Source: Sulfolobales archaeon
Lineage (GTDB): Archaea; Thermoproteota; Thermoprotei_A; Sulfolobales; AG1
Length of the DNA stretch: 64,000 nt
Direction: 5' to 3'
Assembly (NCBI GenBank): GCA_038881635.1
Contig: JAVZPJ010000006.1
Location: forward strand, 1 to 64,000
The translations under genes and the position numbers were made by a program. The notes below the pieces were generated by a model, which saw only the letters and a list, made by a program, of their open reading frames with translations, was not told where the DNA came from and searched no databases. This document shows positions 53,550 to 64,000 of the stretch, piece after piece; position 1 is the stretch's first letter; every line of letters starts with the position of its first letter.

Positions 53550-54161
53550 CTAAGATGAAGAAGATCTCTTCTTCATATACTCATCGATTACTTCTTTCAA
53601 AGCTCTTCCTCTATGGCTGATCCATATCTTAATATCTTCACCTAGTTCTGCGAATGTTTTATCATAATTCTCTGGAATGAATATAGGGTCGAAGCCAAAG
53701 CCTTTAAATCCTCTGATCTCTCTACTGATTCTTCCACGTACTATGCCTGTTGCCAGTCTCAGATTCTTTTCTCCTTTGAATCTATATGCTATCACAGCTT
53801 TGAAATAGGCTTCTCTATTGTTCTTCTCCTCTAATAGTTTCAGCACTCCTTCTAATCCTATGGTTTTGTATACGTAGCTTGAGAAAGGTCCTGGAAAGCC
53901 TTTGAGAGACTCTATGAAAAGCCCTGAATCTTCTCTCATAATAATATCCCACTTCTCAGCTTCTCTTATCTGATCTAATGCGTTTTCAAGTGTGTAGAGT
54001 GCTATCTTCTCTAACTCTTCTTCTTGTATCTCTATCTTTCTAATGCTATCCGGCATTCCATCTACTATGAATTCTACTCCTGGGTATAGTCTTTCTAGGA
54101 GGAGTCTTGTCTCAAGAATCTTGTTAGTGTTATTGGTCAGATTAAGTATTCTAATGATCAA
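53550..54161 (-). CDS. XTP/dITP diphosphatase (Ham1/RdgB family)
   Basis: This 203-residue housecleaning enzyme hydrolyses ITP, XTP and related noncanonical nucleotides. Motifs are REDSGLFIESLKGFPGPFSSYV, GFKGFGFDPIF and SHRGRA. The N-terminal motif is atypical (LNLTNNTNK rather than FxTxNxxK) but still has the conserved TNK. It overlaps the PLD-like gene by 4 bases (ATGA). Confidence 0.88.
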   Translation of the reverse strand: MIIRILNLTNNTNKILETRLLLERLYPGVEFIVDGMPDSIRKIEIQEEELEKIALYTLENALDQIREAEKWDIIMREDSGLFIESLKGFPGPFSSYVYKTIGLEGVLKLLEEKNNREAYFKAVIAYRFKGEKNLRLATGIVRGRISREIRGFKGFGFDPIFIPENYDKTFAELGEDIKIWISHRGRALKEVIDEYMKKRSSSS

Positions 54162-54757
54162 ATGCTTCTCCCCTTACTCCATATATCCTCAAAATATCTG
54201 ATCATGCTCTCTCCAACACTCTGATCATATATCACTACAGAGACTTCATGATTTCTTGTGAGAGCTGACTCAGTCCAGTTATGAGATCCTATGAATACAA
54301 TGTATCCATCGATTATAACGATCTTGGCATGAGTAGTTTTAGAAGCACTTTCATCAAGCTTTATAGAGATGCTCATGTTCTTAAGAAACGATATAGTCTC
54401 GGGATAGCTCTGCATGGTAGTGTCATCGACGATGATCTTCACATCAACACCTCTCCTCTTTAGATCTGCTAGAGTATATAGAAGGATATTCACAGGATCA
54501 TTATACTGCTTAGGATCGTATTTTATAACGTACATTATAACGTGCACACTCTTATTAGCTCTATCAAGCCACCAACGCAGAGTATCATAGTAGTCTTTAT
54601 CAGTTAAAACTCTATAGACTCCCGCACCGGAAGATGAAACGTTAACGCTCTGAGAAACATTAGATCTATAATATTCGAACCCTACCTCAAAGCCTGCAAG
54701 AAATCCTAAGATGAAAACAACTAAAATAATCACTCCAAAGGATCTTTTCAAAACCAT
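54158..54757 (-). CDS. Exported PLD-like phosphodiesterase/nuclease, single HKD motif
   Basis: This 199-residue protein has an N-terminal membrane/signal helix (GVIILVVFILGFLAGFEVG) and a single HKD motif HAKIVIIDGYIVFIGSHNWTESAL. Single-motif proteins dimerise to make the active site. A serine/valine linker (about 35-50) separates helix and domain. Probably external; substrate (DNA or phospholipid) unclear. It precedes Ham1 in a coupled unit. Confidence 0.8.
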   Translation of the reverse strand: MVLKRSFGVIILVVFILGFLAGFEVGFEYYRSNVSQSVNVSSSGAGVYRVLTDKDYYDTLRWWLDRANKSVHVIMYVIKYDPKQYNDPVNILLYTLADLKRRGVDVKIIVDDTTMQSYPETISFLKNMSISIKLDESASKTTHAKIVIIDGYIVFIGSHNWTESALTRNHEVSVVIYDQSVGESMIRYFEDIWSKGRSI

Positions 54758-56521: not shown

Positions 56522-58186
56522 GTGGTTCTGTTTTTTTCTCTAGCTACTCTCAACACTGTTTCGAGGACTTATGATAGTTGGGCTAGTTATAGGAATCCCT
56601 ATATCGATGTGCTACAGAGGGTTGAGCCTGTTAATATTTCTGGAGAGCCTGTGGCCAGGCATATAGTATTTATCTTATTTGACGGTTTAAGTGTTGATAA
56701 TCTTGAGAGTTTAATTAGAGAGTACGATAGCTTAAGAGAGCTCATATCTATGGGAGCCTTCTATCCTCATGGTCTAGCTAATACACCCACATACTCTACC
56801 CCTGGGAGAGCATCTATACTTACAGGCTCTCCTCCAGAGGTTAATGGTGTAATCTCTAACTTCTATAACGGGTCTCTGCAGGTTGACAGTATCGCTAGAG
56901 TAGCTAAGGATGCTGGGTTTAAGATCTTATGTTCCGGTGATGAATCTATAGAGATGCTATTATCAGGCATCATTGACGAATGCTCAAGAGTTAATATAGG
57001 AGGAGGTCATGGAGCTATAGCTTTATCTGAGGGCTTAAGGCTTTTTAATAAATACTCAGATGCAGGATATAGGGTTTTCCTCTGGATCGGCATTAGCGAC
57101 ATCGATGAGATAGGTCATCTTAGTACTGGTAGTAGGAGCTCAGAATATAATGCCACCATAGTTAATATTGCTAGACTCACCCTCAACTTCATAGAATCTA
57201 TAGCCGGTAAGAATGTCTTAATAGTCATATTAAACGATCATGGCTTTAAAAAAGTAGGACATCACGGAGGTTCAGAGCCTGAGGTTAGGAGGGTTTTCAC
57301 ATTATTTATAGGACCTAAGGTTAAGCCGGGAGTATATAATATCAGCTTTACCCATAACGATATAGCTCCTACAATAGCTATGCTCATGGGCTTGAGAATA
57401 CCTACGCTATCTATGGGTAGAGTCTTATCCGAAGGCTTCGATATTTCTACCGATAGAGTTGAGGCGTATGCTAAAGCCTCTAGAGAGCAAGCTTTTAGAG
57501 TTGTAGCCGCTATGGGAGGAGCTATGGGTGTGGAAATCAGCTCTGCAGCTGATCCTCTAGACTCGTATCTGCTAATCACTAGCAAGCTATACAGTGAGGG
57601 TATGATCATGAGACTGGTCCTAGTCTTGTTCCTAGCAGCTATAGCATTAGCAGGCTTATACATGTCTCTAAGAGCACGCATCTTCAGCCCTAGAAGGCTT
57701 CTAATACTCACAGTCTCTGGACTCACAGTCTATGAGGCTGTATATTGGCTGGTATACTTGATAGTTGGAGGACCTACAAGCCTCTCCGATACACTTTCGC
57801 TAAGAGATCTCCTAGATAAGATTATGGTTTCGGTGATGCTGAGCAGCGCTTTTCTAGGAGTTGTCCTAGGTTTTGTAGAGCTAACCCCATTTAGAGTTGG
57901 AATCATAAAGATTCTAATACCTACACTCACAGTACCAGCTCTAGCACTGTTTTTAAGTCTCATATATGCTTCTCCCTTCTATATAAGCTACGGTTCTACT
58001 GTAAGGTTTCCTCCACCAGATTGGAGTAGTGGGTTTATGTTCTTTGTATATCTAATGAAGGCTTCATCTACGGGGCTGGTAGGATTGCCTCTAGCACTGG
58101 TAATTGTGATAATATTCTCTATTATAGGCTTTTACATACACAGGTCACTTGAGAGACTTGAGAGAGCTGGGAAGAGTGGAGCCTAA
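56522..58186 (+). CDS. Membrane-bound type I phosphodiesterase/alkaline-phosphatase superfamily protein
   Basis: This 554-residue protein has an N-terminal membrane helix, an extracellular alkaline-phosphatase-like domain (about 40-330) and four or five C-terminal helices. Metal residues are D54 (LFDGL), D195/H199 (SDIDEIGHL), D239/H240 (NDHGF) and H247/H248, and the nucleophile is probably T93 in PTYSTPGRAS. It should cleave phosphodiesters or phosphates outside the cell. It is the first gene of an operon for glycerol-phosphate use, suggesting glycerophosphodiester or phospholipid head groups as substrate (inference). The upstream in-frame hydrophobic codons suggest the chain starts earlier. 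Confidence 0.82.
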   Translation: MVLFFSLATLNTVSRTYDSWASYRNPYIDVLQRVEPVNISGEPVARHIVFILFDGLSVDNLESLIREYDSLRELISMGAFYPHGLANTPTYSTPGRASILTGSPPEVNGVISNFYNGSLQVDSIARVAKDAGFKILCSGDESIEMLLSGIIDECSRVNIGGGHGAIALSEGLRLFNKYSDAGYRVFLWIGISDIDEIGHLSTGSRSSEYNATIVNIARLTLNFIESIAGKNVLIVILNDHGFKKVGHHGGSEPEVRRVFTLFIGPKVKPGVYNISFTHNDIAPTIAMLMGLRIPTLSMGRVLSEGFDISTDRVEAYAKASREQAFRVVAAMGGAMGVEISSAADPLDSYLLITSKLYSEGMIMRLVLVLFLAAIALAGLYMSLRARIFSPRRLLILTVSGLTVYEAVYWLVYLIVGGPTSLSDTLSLRDLLDKIMVSVMLSSAFLGVVLGFVELTPFRVGIIKILIPTLTVPALALFLSLIYASPFYISYGSTVRFPPPDWSSGFMFFVYLMKASSTGLVGLPLALVIVIIFSIIGFYIHRSLERLERAGKSGA

Positions 58187-59612
58187 GATCTATGATGTCG
58201 CGATTATAGGAGCTGGGGTTATAGGCTTACTAGTAGCTTACGAGCTATCAAAATTCGATCTATCAATAGTCTTAGTCGAGAAAGAAGCCGAGGCTGGGTT
58301 TGGAGTCTCTAAGGGTCATGCAGGAGTTATACATGTGATTCAGCCTCCATTCAACTCTCTTAAGAGTGTCTTAGCCCTCTATGGTAATAGACTCTATGAT
58401 AAGATCTCGAGAGAGCTTAAGGTAGGCATGATCAGACTTCCAGCGCTTCTAGTGGCTAGGTCTAGGGCTCAGCTAGCACTCATACCCGTAATATACTCTA
58501 TTCTAAAGCTTGTGTATGGGGTTAGAGGCTTTAAAGTCTCTATAGTTGCAGGGAAGAAGCTGAGGCTGATAGAGCCTAATGTTGTGGGCTATGCTGCGAT
58601 CATGGTTGAAGGCTATGGTGTTATAGACTCTTTCGAGCTTGTATACAGGCTTCTCGATGAGTGCAGAGCTAGAGGCGTAGATCTCCTGTTCAATACCGAA
58701 GCTAGAGGGTTTAGATTTGAAGGCGACGATATCATAGTTATTGAGACCTCAAGAGGCTCTATTAAGGCTAGGTATGTTGTGAACTCTACAGGCTTAAACT
58801 CTGATATCCTAGCATCTAAGACCGGAGAGTCTGAGAGGATCGAGCCATTTCTCGGTGTTATGCTTGTATTTGATAAGCTACAGGTTAGAAGCATAGTAAC
58901 CCCCCTGCCATCGCTAAAACCTACTAGGACTAAGGGTGGAGGCGTGATACCTACAGTATGGGGTAACACTATCTGGGGTCCGAGCTTCACTCCAATAATT
59001 TCACGTGAGAATAGAGAAGTTAGAGCTGAGGATGTTCTATATGTAATTAGAAAGTTTAAGAGGCTGGTAAGGGTTAAGGGAAGGCTTATTAAAGTATACT
59101 CTGGCATTAGACCCTCAGCGGTAAGTGGAGACTTTTCCATAAGCTATTCTCCACTAACAAAAAGAATCATTAATCTAGTAGGCATAGAATCTCCAGGACT
59201 TACAGCAGCCCCCGCTATAGCTCTCATAGTGTCTAAGATGCTTCGAGATGCTGGACTGAAGCTTATGGCTACTAAGAAAGTGCTTCATAGAACTGAGCCG
59301 ACTCTAAGTACCAGAGTTAAGCTAGCTCTAGATCCCTCAAACATATCAGGCTATGATGGAGTCATTATATGCCCTTGTATGAAGGTTAGCCTAGCAGATG
59401 TTACTGAGGCTATAAGAAGAGGAGCATCAACATTGGATGGGATCATGTTCAGGACGAAGCTGGGAATGGGATCATGTCAAGGATTACACTGCGTAGGTAG
59501 AGCTATAACTATACTCCAGAAGCTGACCGGAGCGAGCCCGAGAAGTCTTACCAAGAACACCAGCGGATCATGGTTGGTCGAGGAGCTCAGGGTAGATGAA
59601 ATTGAAAAGTAG
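58176..59612 (+). CDS. GlpA-like glycerol-3-phosphate dehydrogenase with BFD [2Fe-2S] domain
   Basis: This 478-residue flavoprotein has DVAIIGAGVIGLLVAYELS as the FAD-binding motif, GVSKGHAGVIH in the DAO fold, and ISTSYSG-like late motifs. A C-terminal BFD-like [2Fe-2S] domain has CPC (about C399, C401) and CQGLHC (about C434, C439). It would oxidise glycerol-3-phosphate to dihydroxyacetone phosphate, as GlpA does. GTG 58176 is chosen behind GAGAGCTGGGA; it overlaps the upstream gene by 11 bases. Reaction by family; substrate not proven. Confidence 0.85.
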   Translation: MEPKIYDVAIIGAGVIGLLVAYELSKFDLSIVLVEKEAEAGFGVSKGHAGVIHVIQPPFNSLKSVLALYGNRLYDKISRELKVGMIRLPALLVARSRAQLALIPVIYSILKLVYGVRGFKVSIVAGKKLRLIEPNVVGYAAIMVEGYGVIDSFELVYRLLDECRARGVDLLFNTEARGFRFEGDDIIVIETSRGSIKARYVVNSTGLNSDILASKTGESERIEPFLGVMLVFDKLQVRSIVTPLPSLKPTRTKGGGVIPTVWGNTIWGPSFTPIISRENREVRAEDVLYVIRKFKRLVRVKGRLIKVYSGIRPSAVSGDFSISYSPLTKRIINLVGIESPGLTAAPAIALIVSKMLRDAGLKLMATKKVLHRTEPTLSTRVKLALDPSNISGYDGVIICPCMKVSLADVTEAIRRGASTLDGIMFRTKLGMGSCQGLHCVGRAITILQKLTGASPRSLTKNTSGSWLVEELRVDEIEK

Positions 59613-60549
59613 AGAGCCAGAGTTTCACATAATAGGAGCCGGGCTTTCAGGACTTTCTCTAGCTAGACATCTTATGGATAGAGGGTTTAATGTTAGGGTT
59701 TCAGAGACGAGAGATAGAATTGGAGGTATATCGGTCTTAGACTCCGAGGTTATAGGCCTCATCGAGAAGATAGGCTCGGAGGTTGATGTAAGTCTCCAAG
59801 CTACAGCTATTAGGCTGGGGGGTTCAACTGCTATAGTATCTAGCAGAGGTGTTGAGACTGTATCTAGAGGGGTGGTAGCTACAGGGTTTAGAACTGCTAC
59901 CCCCATAGAGCTGGGTATTGTCGGGGAGAGACCTTCAGGCATATACCCGTTCCATGTAGCATTAGACCTCATAATTTCAGGTCTTTCCCCGGGGAGGATC
60001 ATAGCAGTCTATGGAGTTAATAGGTATAGCATGCTAATGGCTGAGAAGCTTTCAGAATATGGTAGAAAAGTCTATATTATAGACCCAAGCTCTACTGAAA
60101 AGATAATAACAAGAAATCTAGAGGTTGTGAGGGGTAAGGTCAGAGTATTAAAAGGGCCTCATAGACTATCAGAGATTAAACTTGATAGAGGCGTGCTAAA
60201 AGCTGACACCCTGATAATATCTATATTTAAGCCTTGGAATCCGTTTACAGAACTCCTTCCAGTAGGGCATGCAGTGCTTGAGGTCTATAACCCTAAAGCC
60301 TTATTAGAGGCTAGTAGGCTTCTAGCGGTAAATCTAGGCTGCGAGGATCACACATATAGAAGAGTTAAGGCTGAAGGAGGCGTCCAAGTATTCCCAGAAA
60401 CTCTTACACCATGTCTTAGAGAGCTGCTGGTGATCAAGTCAGGAGGCGGGAGAATCGAGGTTAACGGTAAAATCTATAGCATAAGTGGAGAGTATTCGAT
60501 AGTTAGAATATCTGAAGACTCTGGAGATCTAAGGGTGAGAGTGCTGTGA
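59596..60549 (+). CDS. GlpB-like FAD/NAD oxidoreductase, partner of GlpA-like protein
   Basis: This 317-residue protein starts with the FAD-binding GAGLSGLSLARHLMDRGF and GGI loop, and has a second nucleotide-binding motif IIAVYGVNRYSMLMAEKLSEYG (about 133-155). It is shorter than usual pyridine nucleotide-disulfide oxidoreductases and lacks a redox CxxC pair. It overlaps GlpA by 17 bases, so likely pairs with it, as GlpB or HcnA-type subunits do. Electron acceptor unknown. Confidence 0.75.
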   Translation: MKLKSREPEFHIIGAGLSGLSLARHLMDRGFNVRVSETRDRIGGISVLDSEVIGLIEKIGSEVDVSLQATAIRLGGSTAIVSSRGVETVSRGVVATGFRTATPIELGIVGERPSGIYPFHVALDLIISGLSPGRIIAVYGVNRYSMLMAEKLSEYGRKVYIIDPSSTEKIITRNLEVVRGKVRVLKGPHRLSEIKLDRGVLKADTLIISIFKPWNPFTELLPVGHAVLEVYNPKALLEASRLLAVNLGCEDHTYRRVKAEGGVQVFPETLTPCLRELLVIKSGGGRIEVNGKIYSISGEYSIVRISEDSGDLRVRVL

Positions 60550-61952
60550 AGTATGGGGTAGTTGATATCGGAGGTACAGGGGTTAAGATCAGTGTCTATA
60601 ATGATGAATTTAGGAGAGTAGATCATACAAAGATAAGAATCCCAATAAAAACAGCTTCAGGAGATTCTATAGAGCATGATGCTATGAGAATTAGAGAGGC
60701 TTTATTCCACGGCTTTAGGTGGCTTAGAGAGCGTGAGGTCAGACTTGCTGGCATAGCCACCTACAGGGCTTCAATACTGGCATGGGATCGAGAGGGAAAT
60801 CCTCTAACTAATATTATCACATGGATGGACAGGAGAAGTAAGAGTATAATATTAAAACCATTATATAGGATGCTCAGGCATGTACCTCTCCTAAATAGGA
60901 TACTCAGAGCTGACAGCCCAGCGGTTAGGATAAGATGGCTCCTAGACTCAAATCCTGATATTAGAATGAGAGTTGAGAGGGGAGAGGCTTATGTGGGGAC
61001 TTTAAGCTCATACATAGCATACTTATTGTCATCAAGGTATATTAATGACGCTTCAAACGAGGCTCTCACGGGCCTAATAAACCCTAGGAGGTTTAAGAGG
61101 TTATGGCTAGTCTATGATGTGTTAGGAATACCTAGGTCTATTGATCCTGAGATTATAGATAATATTAGCTATATAGGCTCGGCTGAGGATGTAGATGTGG
61201 GTGTTCTCATAGCAGATCAGCAGGCTTCTATAATAGGATCCTCATGTCTTACCACGGAATGCCTTAAAATTACAGGGGGTACAGGGATCTTTGTTGACGC
61301 CGTTACCAGAGATCTCATCATGCCGGGAAAGGCTCTCATACCCCTGGTTGTCTATAGGTTTAGAGGGGAGACTCTCTATGCTATAGAGGGCTTCACTCCC
61401 TCAGGAGGATCTATTATAGAGTGGCTTGTAGGAGTAGGAATTCTAGGTAGTGTCGAGGATCTAGATAGGGTTATAGATGAGGCTAGAAACAGTGTTGTTT
61501 TCATACCATCACTCTCAGCACTAGACTACCCTAGTAGGAGAGGTGAAGCTACAGGCCTCATCTACAAACTCTCACACGATACCTCACGAAGTGATATTGT
61601 TAGAGGAGCTCTCGAAGGTATTATCCTAGTAGTGGCAAGCATCATTGATTCTGTGGAGAGAGCTGCTGGGAGGAGAGAGATAATAAGAGCTGATGGAGGG
61701 TTAAGTAACAGTATCTCGTATTTAAAGCTTCTAGCATCAGTATGCAACCGTAGAATAGAGAGGATTAGAGGAGTTGACGGGACTGGGAGAGGAGTAGCAC
61801 TTCTCCTAGCGGTATATGACGGGAGGCTTAAAATAAGAGATTTAGAGAAGTTAAGTGATATAGACTATGTAGCTGAGCCTGGATATCTAGATTTAAAGAT
61901 TGATACTAGTATGTGGAGGGAGGCTCTGGGTTGGGGTTCGAGGACTTCCTAA
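60546..61952 (+). CDS. FGGY-family carbohydrate kinase, glycerol kinase-like
   Basis: This 468-residue kinase has VDIGGTGVKISVYN at the ATP phosphate-1 loop, WMDRRS near the substrate, DQQAS, ITGGTGIF and RADGGLSNS later in the fold. These are glycerol-kinase-like in the FGGY family. GTG start overlaps the GlpB-like stop by 4 bases. With GlpA and GlpB it would channel glycerol into glycerol-3-phosphate, then DHAP. The sugar acid or polyol specificity is not proven. Confidence 0.83.
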   Translation: MKYGVVDIGGTGVKISVYNDEFRRVDHTKIRIPIKTASGDSIEHDAMRIREALFHGFRWLREREVRLAGIATYRASILAWDREGNPLTNIITWMDRRSKSIILKPLYRMLRHVPLLNRILRADSPAVRIRWLLDSNPDIRMRVERGEAYVGTLSSYIAYLLSSRYINDASNEALTGLINPRRFKRLWLVYDVLGIPRSIDPEIIDNISYIGSAEDVDVGVLIADQQASIIGSSCLTTECLKITGGTGIFVDAVTRDLIMPGKALIPLVVYRFRGETLYAIEGFTPSGGSIIEWLVGVGILGSVEDLDRVIDEARNSVVFIPSLSALDYPSRRGEATGLIYKLSHDTSRSDIVRGALEGIILVVASIIDSVERAAGRREIIRADGGLSNSISYLKLLASVCNRRIERIRGVDGTGRGVALLLAVYDGRLKIRDLEKLSDIDYVAEPGYLDLKIDTSMWREALGWGSRTS

Positions 61953-63310
61953 GAGACGTCACAGGCTCTCTGGGAGATGATATCATCTTAGCCGATATTG
62001 ATAGGTACTCGAGAGACTGGTGGCCTCTAGCCATGCTCCTAGATAAGCTTAAAGCTTGGAGTGCTAGACCACTAGCAGTCTTAGCTCCGAGGAGTGTTTA
62101 TGAGGTCTCGTATATTGTTAAGAAGGCTGGAGAACATGGTATATGTATCATACCACATGGTGGTGGTTCCAGTGTTACTGGAGCCTCAGCTCCTAGAAGT
62201 GAATGTATCATCCTAACCTTATCTAGGATGAGTAGGATTCTAGAATTTAACATAGATGATTCAACTGTAACTGTAGAGGCCGGTATCACTCTATCAGAGC
62301 TCGAGAACTGGCTGAACTCTAGAGGTTATACTATTAGACATGTGCCGCAATCATTTCACCTAGCCACTGTTGGAGGCTGCATAGCTACTCTATGCTCTGG
62401 CCAGTACAGCACAGGCTATGGAAGTATAGAGGATATTACCGTGAACCTAGAAGTTGTACTCCCATCAGGTGATATTATATGGACTAGAAGTATTACAACT
62501 CCTAGATCATCTATGGGTCCTGACTTAAAACACCTATTCATAGGCTCTGAGGGAGCCTATGGTATAGTGACTAAGGCTGTACTCAGAGTCCTTCCAATAC
62601 CTAGACACAGGGTTGAGGCATCATTTGAGATCTCAAGCTTTGAGAAGGGGCTTAGCATTGTTAGAGAGTTGATTATTAGAGGTTTAACACCCGCACTAGC
62701 AAGATTATCAGATGATGTTGAGTCTACCATTAGGTTTGGGAGAGGGAAGCCTGTGCTACTGATAGTATACGAGTCTAGCTATGAAGATATACTAGACGTG
62801 CTATGGGGTAGAGCTAGAGAGATTATAGAATCTACTGGTGGAGAATACGTCGGAGACGAGCCCTATAAGAAGTGGCTCTCCTCAAGGTTCAACTACGAGG
62901 ATGATATAAAGCTAATAGATTCTATGGGACTATGGTTTGAGACTCTAGACATTGCAGCCACATGGTCTAAACTTCCACAGGTATATAGGAATATCAAGAA
63001 AACCCTAGAAAAAGTTAGTGAGGGTCTTATAGTGATGACTCACGCATCACATTTCTACACTACTGGAGCAGCACTGTACTATACAATACTTTACAAGAGA
63101 GATCCAGATCTCTACTGGAGCATAGTAGAAGCATTTATGAAAGCTACACTAGAATCTGGAGCAACACTAAGCCATCACCATGGGGTTGGGTTGCTTAAGA
63201 GAAGATGGCTAAAAGTAGATCCCGGTCAATCAATGGTGATACTAAGCAGCATAAAGAAAGCCTTAGATCCTAAGAATATATTAAACTCTAACATAACGGC
63301 AGTACAATAG
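61931..63310 (+). CDS. Alkyl-DHAP synthase (AGPS)-like FAD-linked enzyme
   Basis: This 459-residue protein belongs to the vanillyl-alcohol-oxidase FAD superfamily: IPHGGGSSVTGASAP and GSEGAYGIVTKAVLRV bind FAD. Later blocks resemble AGPS: LDIAATWSKLPQVYRNIKK, THASHFYTTGAALYYTI and LSHHHGVGLLKRRWL, with the histidine triplet near 414-416. AGPS makes ether bonds from acyl-DHAP and alcohol; D-lactate-type oxidases are a looser relative. TTG 61931 is chosen, with GGAGG about seven bases upstream; GTG 61913 is an alternative. It is last in the glycerol operon. Confidence 0.82.
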   Translation: MGFEDFLRDVTGSLGDDIILADIDRYSRDWWPLAMLLDKLKAWSARPLAVLAPRSVYEVSYIVKKAGEHGICIIPHGGGSSVTGASAPRSECIILTLSRMSRILEFNIDDSTVTVEAGITLSELENWLNSRGYTIRHVPQSFHLATVGGCIATLCSGQYSTGYGSIEDITVNLEVVLPSGDIIWTRSITTPRSSMGPDLKHLFIGSEGAYGIVTKAVLRVLPIPRHRVEASFEISSFEKGLSIVRELIIRGLTPALARLSDDVESTIRFGRGKPVLLIVYESSYEDILDVLWGRAREIIESTGGEYVGDEPYKKWLSSRFNYEDDIKLIDSMGLWFETLDIAATWSKLPQVYRNIKKTLEKVSEGLIVMTHASHFYTTGAALYYTILYKRDPDLYWSIVEAFMKATLESGATLSHHHGVGLLKRRWLKVDPGQSMVILSSIKKALDPKNILNSNITAVQ

Positions 63311-63700
63311 CCTAGTAGAGAGAAGCCTCACACTACCCCAGATACATACACATCCCATCTCACAGGGTTCAACCTTTATATGGTTTAACACATATCACCT
63401 TCTCCGGATCCTAGATGCCATCTATAGAAGATAGATGGGAGATCTAATGATAATACTGTTTGAGTAAATGTGTGTTAGAGTTGAACCTCTTCACAAGAGT
63501 AGTGAGGATAGAAGATTTGGCGAATACCTCTTCTAATCTTAGCGTGAGGATATATGTGTAGATAATAGATTCTATAAGCATGTGGGAAGAGATCGAGTTC
63601 TTTTTTCAACAGATCTTTAAACTGTTGCTACCAAGGTTACGTAACCCACTCTTTATTATCTTATAGCTGCTATAGTATCCTGGTGATATACCTGATAAGA
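63311..63700. other. Gap with one hairpin before the SBP gene
   Basis: No gene is seen. CCATCTAT (63418-63425) and ATAGATGG (63431-63438) form a perfect eight-base stem with a five-base loop, resembling the R1 arms. A TATA-like CCTTTATATGG is at 63373 and CTTTATTATCTTATAG at about 63650, probably promoting the next gene. Confidence 0.4.
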
Positions 63701-64000
63701 GTGTCTACCAGTCAAATTAAGATTCTCCCTATATTAATTTTAACGCTATTAATAGTTGCAATACCAAGTGCTATGATAAATGCGAAGGCTGAGGATAAAA
63801 CCTATGTGTGGGGCTTTCCAGGTACTGCGAGAGGGAATCTCAATCCTTTCACCGCAGCTGGCATTGATGCCACTATAACAGGTCTTCTATTTTCAACAAT
63901 GCTTTTCTTCCTAGCTCCCAACGGATCTCTAATACCATGGGCTGCAAGTTCATGGGAGTTTAAATCTTCTGGAAATTATACTGAAGTGTACTTCCGTATA
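63701..64000 (+). CDS. ABC transporter substrate-binding protein, family 5 (partial)
   Basis: The 5' part of a gene runs off the window. After a signal peptide (ILPILILTLLIVAIPSAMINAKA), the mature start KTYVWGFPGTARGNLNPFT and IPWAASSWEFKSSGNYTEVYFRI match oligopeptide/dipeptide-type (family 5) solute-binding proteins. GTG 63701 is used; GTG 63683 is also in frame. It probably heads a peptide or sugar ABC importer beyond this window. Confidence 0.75.
   Translation, partial: MSTSQIKILPILILTLLIVAIPSAMINAKAEDKTYVWGFPGTARGNLNPFTAAGIDATITGLLFSTMLFFLAPNGSLIPWAASSWEFKSSGNYTEVYFRI

Follow-up and report, generated by a model that had tools for sequence, protein, structure and literature searches.

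An AGPS-like flavoprotein encoded in a glp-like operon of Thermoproteota, a candidate component of glycerol ether catabolism

The closest described relative of the protein considered here is AGPS (ADPS, alkyl-DHAP synthase; EC 2.5.1.26; PDB 4bby, 2uuu), an ether-lipid enzyme that humans also have and whose flavin mechanism removes the C1 substituent from a DHAP derivative. The same two Pfam domains and the same overall fold are found in D-lactate dehydrogenase, GlcD and D-2-hydroxyglutarate dehydrogenase. At the level of gene organization the nearest systems are the archaeal GlpTk-NOX-MOX/GlpK operons (PMC11962113), which also have a GlpA-type dehydrogenase, an FAD/NAD partner, a GlpK-like gene and, in some families, DUF1667, but differ in that an AGPS-like member is not mentioned in that report and in that the kinase of our locus is non-canonical. 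If the function proposed below holds, cleavage of ether bonds would be shared with AGMO, but that enzyme is a tetrahydrobiopterin-dependent monooxygenase and is unrelated as a protein; it has been described as the sole known enzyme that breaks 1-O-alkyl ether bonds (PMC9192799, PMC7911779). We found no description of an archaeal AGPS-like enzyme in such an operon in the open-access literature, and an oxygen-independent breakdown route for ether-type lipids would be new.

The window, which is the whole 64,000-nucleotide stretch of DNA analyzed, from a thermophilic member of the Sulfolobales, contains five genes that overlap end to end, the last of them coding for the AGPS-like protein:

56522–58186, + strand: membrane-anchored type I phosphodiesterase of the NPP/alkaline phosphatase superfamily (PF01663, 48.5 bits)
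58149–59612, + strand: GlpA-like FAD dehydrogenase with DAO and BFD [2Fe-2S] domains (PF01266, 174 bits; PF04324, 40.7 bits)
59596–60549, + strand: GlpB-like protein, an NAD(P)-binding Rossmann flavoprotein (PF13450 and related)
60546–61952, + strand: FGGY kinase, GlpK-like, lacking E84 and Y135 among the glycerol contacts (FGGY_N/C)
61931–63310, + strand: AGPS-like FAD enzyme, 459 aa, TTG start (PF01565, 126.8 bits; PF02913, 93.9 bits; phmmer, Foldseek, tree)

The AGPS-like protein

A preliminary description of this DNA placed the gene at 61931–63310, and the reading frame is indeed open there, from 61913 to 63310 on the + strand. The TTG at 61931 lies about 8 nt downstream of GGAGGGAGG, a good spacing that makes this start, and a protein of 459 residues, plausible. 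A Pfam search recognizes FAD_binding_4 and FAD-oxidase_C domains. The top PDB sequences in phmmer are AGPS of guinea pig (E = 7e-54) and Dictyostelium (5e-48), with lactate, glycolate and 2-hydroxyglutarate dehydrogenases trailing at 1.8e-32 and worse; NCBIfam returns GlcD-type matches only, all of them sub-threshold. All the motif blocks quoted in the preliminary description can be found in the protein and have aligned counterparts in guinea-pig AGPS: SHHHGVG is the same in both proteins (H615-617), HASHFYTTGAALYY is aligned with TQTYDAGACIYF (Y578), and AATWSKLPQVYRN with SAPWDRVVDLCRN. To judge from its sequence, the protein is an FAD oxidase-family relative of AGPS, with a similarity far above chance. 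A second FAD-oxidase_C protein of the same genome (L001, G000:C4:82929-84242) groups with the hydroxyacid dehydrogenases, and the AGPS-like protein is therefore not the sole member of the superfamily in its genome.

We built a tree of 82 rows with IQ-TREE, in which the eukaryotic sequences are partial, being transcribed from HMMER alignments, and have long branches. Sixty AGPS-like rows, including the window protein (100/100), are split from 20 hydroxyacid-dehydrogenase rows (100/99), and two archaeal rows (L185, L186) fall between the two clades. Eukaryotic AGPS and the GlpD-linked bacterial proteins together form a clade of 22 rows (100/99), and the archaeal AGPS-like proteins, the window one included, lie outside it in several groups. 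Set against AGPS and the oxidases in this way, the kinship with AGPS that had been claimed holds (E = 7e-54, AGPS-side placement at 100/100, and R419, Y578 and the three histidines kept), and neither sequence nor tree gives a strong placement with D-lactate dehydrogenases. The reading as a plain D-lactate/glycolate dehydrogenase is rejected on the strength of the residues (Tyr, SHHHG) together with the tree. An AlphaFold2 model made from 11 sequences (pLDDT 83.6, pTM 0.84) has weak parts at residues 24–30, 79–85 and 416–421, the last overlapping the His motif. Its top Foldseek match is AGPS (1e-36), and the VIA-align Z scores of 37.5 for LDHD and 36.5 for AGPS are tied, so that the fold alone does not decide function.

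AGPS numbering was carried onto the protein through alignments with guinea-pig AGPS as the reference. Dictyostelium AGPS R352, Y508 and R447, which are reported to be important on the basis of mutagenesis (PMC3509576), were equated with guinea-pig R419, Y578 and R515 from residue counts. The corresponding codons, placed by the alignments, are as follows:

62702–62704, + strand: R258, equivalent to AGPS R419 (Dictyostelium R352)
62906–62908, + strand: I326, at the position of the catalytic AGPS R515 (Dictyostelium R447)
63077–63079, + strand: Y383, equivalent to the AGPS catalytic base Y578 (Dictyostelium Y508)
63173–63181, + strand: H415-H416-H417, equivalent to AGPS H615-H617

The window protein keeps H300, T309, R419, Y578 and H615-H617, and has substitutions at D303 (Gln) and R515 (Ile). 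The hydroxyacid dehydrogenases, in contrast, have Glu opposite R419, His opposite Y578 and (G/A/S)EHG in place of SHHHG. Although the window protein has the full SHHHG, two archaeal groups have HQH. None of the archaeal proteins aligned has an arginine at the R515 position, and it is also absent from three deep-branching bacterial proteins (L054, L055, L073), but the bacterial proteins associated with GlpD/DAGK do have it. With R515 lost, the nucleophile side of the reaction or its redox outcome may differ from that of AGPS. A further departure is the stretch after R419, which is 16 residues long rather than the 44–45 of AGPS, so that an insert of about 29 residues is missing; this segment (within guinea-pig 421–466) would correspond to the helical gating element of AGPS. 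The long N-terminal region of AGPS is also lacking. On sequence grounds (R515 lost, insert missing, position outside the eukaryotic AGPS clade), and although it shares the fold and FAD domain, the protein is not a standard AGPS.

A subfamily of AGPS-like proteins with Val for R419 (L037, L041, L043, L157, L158, L160:9501-10877, L182 and L183) is a different case from the R419-type operon proteins. These occur in Sulfolobaceae-like genomes and as extra copies in Vulcanisaeta-type genomes, and their genes are outside glp operons, except that in G185 one copy follows the operon, two genes further downstream. Several of the Vulcanisaeta-type copies adjoin genes for an enoyl-CoA hydratase, an alpha/beta hydrolase or an AMP-dependent synthetase.

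Operon partners and distribution

The neighbors had been named as GlpK, GlpA and GlpB, which is right in broad terms, but the kinase is not a canonical GlpK, scoring 191.7 bits where the glycerol-kinase model (NCBIfam TIGR01311) requires 590.35, and the operon begins one gene earlier than supposed, with the membrane phosphodiesterase. The same gene order is present in Desulfurococcaceae archaeon AG1 (L045; 73% identity), the closest of the named relatives. We counted 35 R419-type Thermoproteota loci by hand, one of which (L167) was entered from its neighbors, its AGPS-like ORF having been missed by the gene caller. A GlpA-like gene lies within a few genes in 34 of the 35 (in L170 as a fragment), and a GlpK-like kinase gene is nearby in 30; two of the loci without a kinase end at a contig edge.

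A homologue of the phosphodiesterase heads the operon in G002, G003 and G005 and lies close to the module in both G162 and G195, and in Vulcanisaeta-type operons a PF04185 (phospholipase-C-type) protein takes its place; PDB matches to the NPP protein are weak only (E about 3e-4). The GlpA-like proteins keep the M. pneumoniae GlpO residues H51, K258, R320 and S348, which we take to be glycerol-phosphate oxidase sites, in all rows that extend to them, and the GlpA-like protein of the window scores below the NCBIfam equivalog cut-offs for type 2 GlpO (146.6 of 460 bits) and GlpA (72.7 of 552.8 bits). The GlpB-like gene is conserved between the GlpA and GlpK genes, and its product is probably the electron-transfer partner of the GlpA-like protein.

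In the operon kinases, E84 is replaced by Ala, Gly or Ser, and Y135 is likewise replaced, in 36 of 36 rows (about 33 distinct loci), all of which keep R83, W103, D245, Q246 and F270. In the canonical glycerol kinases of archaea none of these seven residues, which are presumably the glycerol contacts, is lost, and in 15 operon genomes a canonical glycerol kinase scoring above the cut-off coexists with the operon kinase. With E84 and Y135 lost and true glycerol kinases elsewhere in these 15 genomes, the operon kinases probably do not serve glycerol. The kinase of the window is the only FGGY protein in its genome and so could still act on glycerol. Any FGGY kinase that acts on something other than glycerol would be expected to have lost E84 and Y135.

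Iron-sulfur proteins (Fer4/CCG) adjoin the AGPS-like gene in several archaeal lineages, but in the window operon the BFD domain within the GlpA-like protein is the only candidate for such a partner. In two archaeal families (L171, L173-L177) the locus comprises genes for an AGPS-like protein, an Fe-S (CCG) protein, a long GlpA (~600 aa), a Pyr_redox-type GlpB, DUF1667 and a kinase, an order that resembles the GlpTk-NOX-MOX set of Thermococcales.

Bacterial relatives were examined at 70 loci picked by similarity to the archaeal proteins, using GC3-based gene choice and tblastn; most are from Actinomycetota and are thus not independent events. A GlpD-like gene was found by tblastn within 4 kb in 64 of these, a DAGK/YegS lipid kinase gene in 46 and both in 44, and a TetR regulator gene is present in 56. 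The GlpD-like neighbor is common to the Chloroflexota, Bacteroidota, Acidobacteriota and Myxococcota members as well. As in the window, a protein of the AGPS-like family is thus partnered by a glycerol-phosphate dehydrogenase and a kinase, the same three activities as in the archaeal operon, but the kinase is unrelated, being of DAGK/YegS rather than FGGY type; the dehydrogenase is GlpD-like, and the bacterial AGPS-like proteins keep R515-D516 (and mostly Y513). This AGPS-like/GlpD-like/TetR/DAGK arrangement is presumably of the type of M. tuberculosis Rv2249c-Rv2252, and we found no functional work on the Rv2251/Rv2249c cluster in titles and abstracts. One locus of a Bacillota metagenome (L055:1-8395) has an AGPS-like gene without R515 beside genes for a CCG protein and a GlpA-GlpB-GlpC-like set, and may link the arrangement seen in archaea with that seen in bacteria.

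Proposed function and alternatives

We propose, with a probability of about 0.45, that the operon is a catabolic module for glycerol ethers, whose products would phosphorylate the substrate, oxidize C2, and cleave the resulting alkyl-DHAP by AGPS-type flavin chemistry. From the observed kinship, the residues kept and lost, and the structure and conservation of the operon we infer the substrate, direction, step order and chemistry as follows. The substrates would be glycerols substituted at position 1, for instance alkylglycerols or what is left of monoether lipids, from which the phosphodiesterase at the cell surface would strip a phospho-headgroup. The GlpK-like kinase, with its pocket lacking two glycerol contacts, would phosphorylate the free end of the alkylglycerol, and the GlpA/GlpB-like flavoproteins would oxidize C2 to give alkyl-DHAP, whose C2 ketone would make the C1 proton acidic. 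In the AGPS-like enzyme, with Y383 as the putative base, FAD N5 as the electrophile, and R258 and H415-417 in the site, an AGPS-type flavin adduct would form with expulsion of the alcohol, and water or another nucleophile would then free DHAP. This would be AGPS chemistry in the cleaving direction and without oxygen.

Among the functions offered in the preliminary description, the breaking of alkyl-DHAP is the best fit to kinship, residues and synteny. It is favored by the AGPS-side position in the tree and by the retention of R419, Y578 and the three histidines at positions that E, H and (G/A)EH occupy in hydroxyacid dehydrogenases, by the loss of E84 and Y135 from operon kinases that probably do not serve glycerol, by the recurrent partners (GlpA-like 34/35 and kinase 30/35 in archaea; GlpD-like 64/70 and lipid kinase 46/70 in bacteria), and by the glycerol-phosphate residues kept in the GlpA-like proteins. 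The NPP or PF04185 phosphoesterases and the SCP2-like and alcohol dehydrogenase neighbors (see below) would also suit lipid breakdown. The stereochemistry is a difficulty for it, since archaeal lipids are based on sn-glycerol-1-phosphate and glycerol kinases phosphorylate the sn-3 position. Archaeal lipid turnover is described as poorly studied, and ether hydrolysis products have been observed in sediments (PMC12718374). The absence of R515, which is reported to be important in AGPS (PMC3509576), also argues against ether cleavage, in that the flavin chemistry may differ. So do the Fe-S proteins that several lineages encode next to the AGPS-like gene, since partners of this type would be in keeping with a redox dehydrogenase.

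A role of the latter kind is a serious, if somewhat unlikely, rival. The protein would be an FAD dehydrogenase that oxidizes a small compound, either derived from glycerol or carrying a 2-hydroxy group (for instance G1P, glycerate or a glycerol phosphate with a substituent), and passes electrons to an Fe-S partner as in GlcD-GlcF, with no ether cleavage. The fold is that of the D-lactate dehydrogenases, with the tied Z scores noted above; Fer4/CCG proteins are neighbors in several archaeal families and at one Bacillota locus; and the AGPS-specific R515 is lost. Yet the hydroxyacid signature is missing, with Tyr for His at the Y578 position and SHHHG for GEHG, the tree places the protein on the AGPS side, and the window operon has the BFD domain as its only Fe-S candidate.

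It is less plausible that this is an ordinary glycerol catabolic operon (GlpK, GlpA, GlpB) to which the AGPS-like protein is accessory. The gene content does resemble glpK-glpA-glpB, the GlpTk-NOX-MOX arrangement is known from archaea (PMC11962113), and the sole FGGY kinase of the window genome sits in the operon; but the kinase is without E84 and Y135 in every operon aligned, canonical glycerol kinases are found alongside it in the 15 genomes, and the AGPS-like gene recurs too regularly for an accessory role.

The weakest reading, a true biosynthetic AGPS making alkyl-DHAP for non-isoprenoid ether lipids of the bacterial/eukaryotic kind, draws on the sequence kinship and on Y578, R419 and HHH but is a poor fit and very improbable, because R515 and the AGPS insert are missing, a PF01553 profile search found no (PlsC-type) acyltransferase that could supply acyl-DHAP in the 97%-complete genome, an ordinary archaeal GGGP synthase is present, and the kinase and FAD dehydrogenase encoded in the same operon suggest a breakdown pathway.

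If the ether-catabolism proposal is true, the operon is a testable, oxygen-independent candidate for ether-lipid recycling in hot, anoxic settings. An extension of it, in which oxygen-independent degradation of glycerol ether lipids by reversed AGPS chemistry would be common in outline to Thermoproteota and many bacteria, is possible but more tentative. Alkyl-DHAP synthase is among the enzymes inferred for LUCA (PMC11383801), and we caution that archaeal AGPS homologues should not be taken as evidence of ether-lipid synthesis, for example where they may stand behind such an inference, because the AGPS-like proteins of the Thermoproteota examined are without the catalytic Arg and are mostly encoded in glycerol-phosphate operons.

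Other neighboring genes

Genes for an SCP2-like small protein and a Zn- or Fe-alcohol dehydrogenase are divergent from, or beside, the operon in six genomes of four families, where the SCP2-like call reflects a marginal Pfam match in one member only; the pair is absent from the window itself. Downstream of the operon, and 373 nt after its end, is the start of a transporter gene:

63683–64000, + strand: start of an SBP_bac_5 solute-binding protein (PF00496, 217 bits), with permease genes (PF00528, 139 bits) beyond the window

The association is weak, and we dropped this ABC transporter as a member of the system since it is not conserved beside the operon in the nearest relative (G002). Several genomes, all from the same family, encode a PEPCK_ATP-like protein (59.6 bits; L163:3484-5277) downstream of the module. 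A small PLD-domain protein (PF13091) with a signal-anchor-like N terminus is encoded near the window operon on the opposite strand, at 54158–54757.
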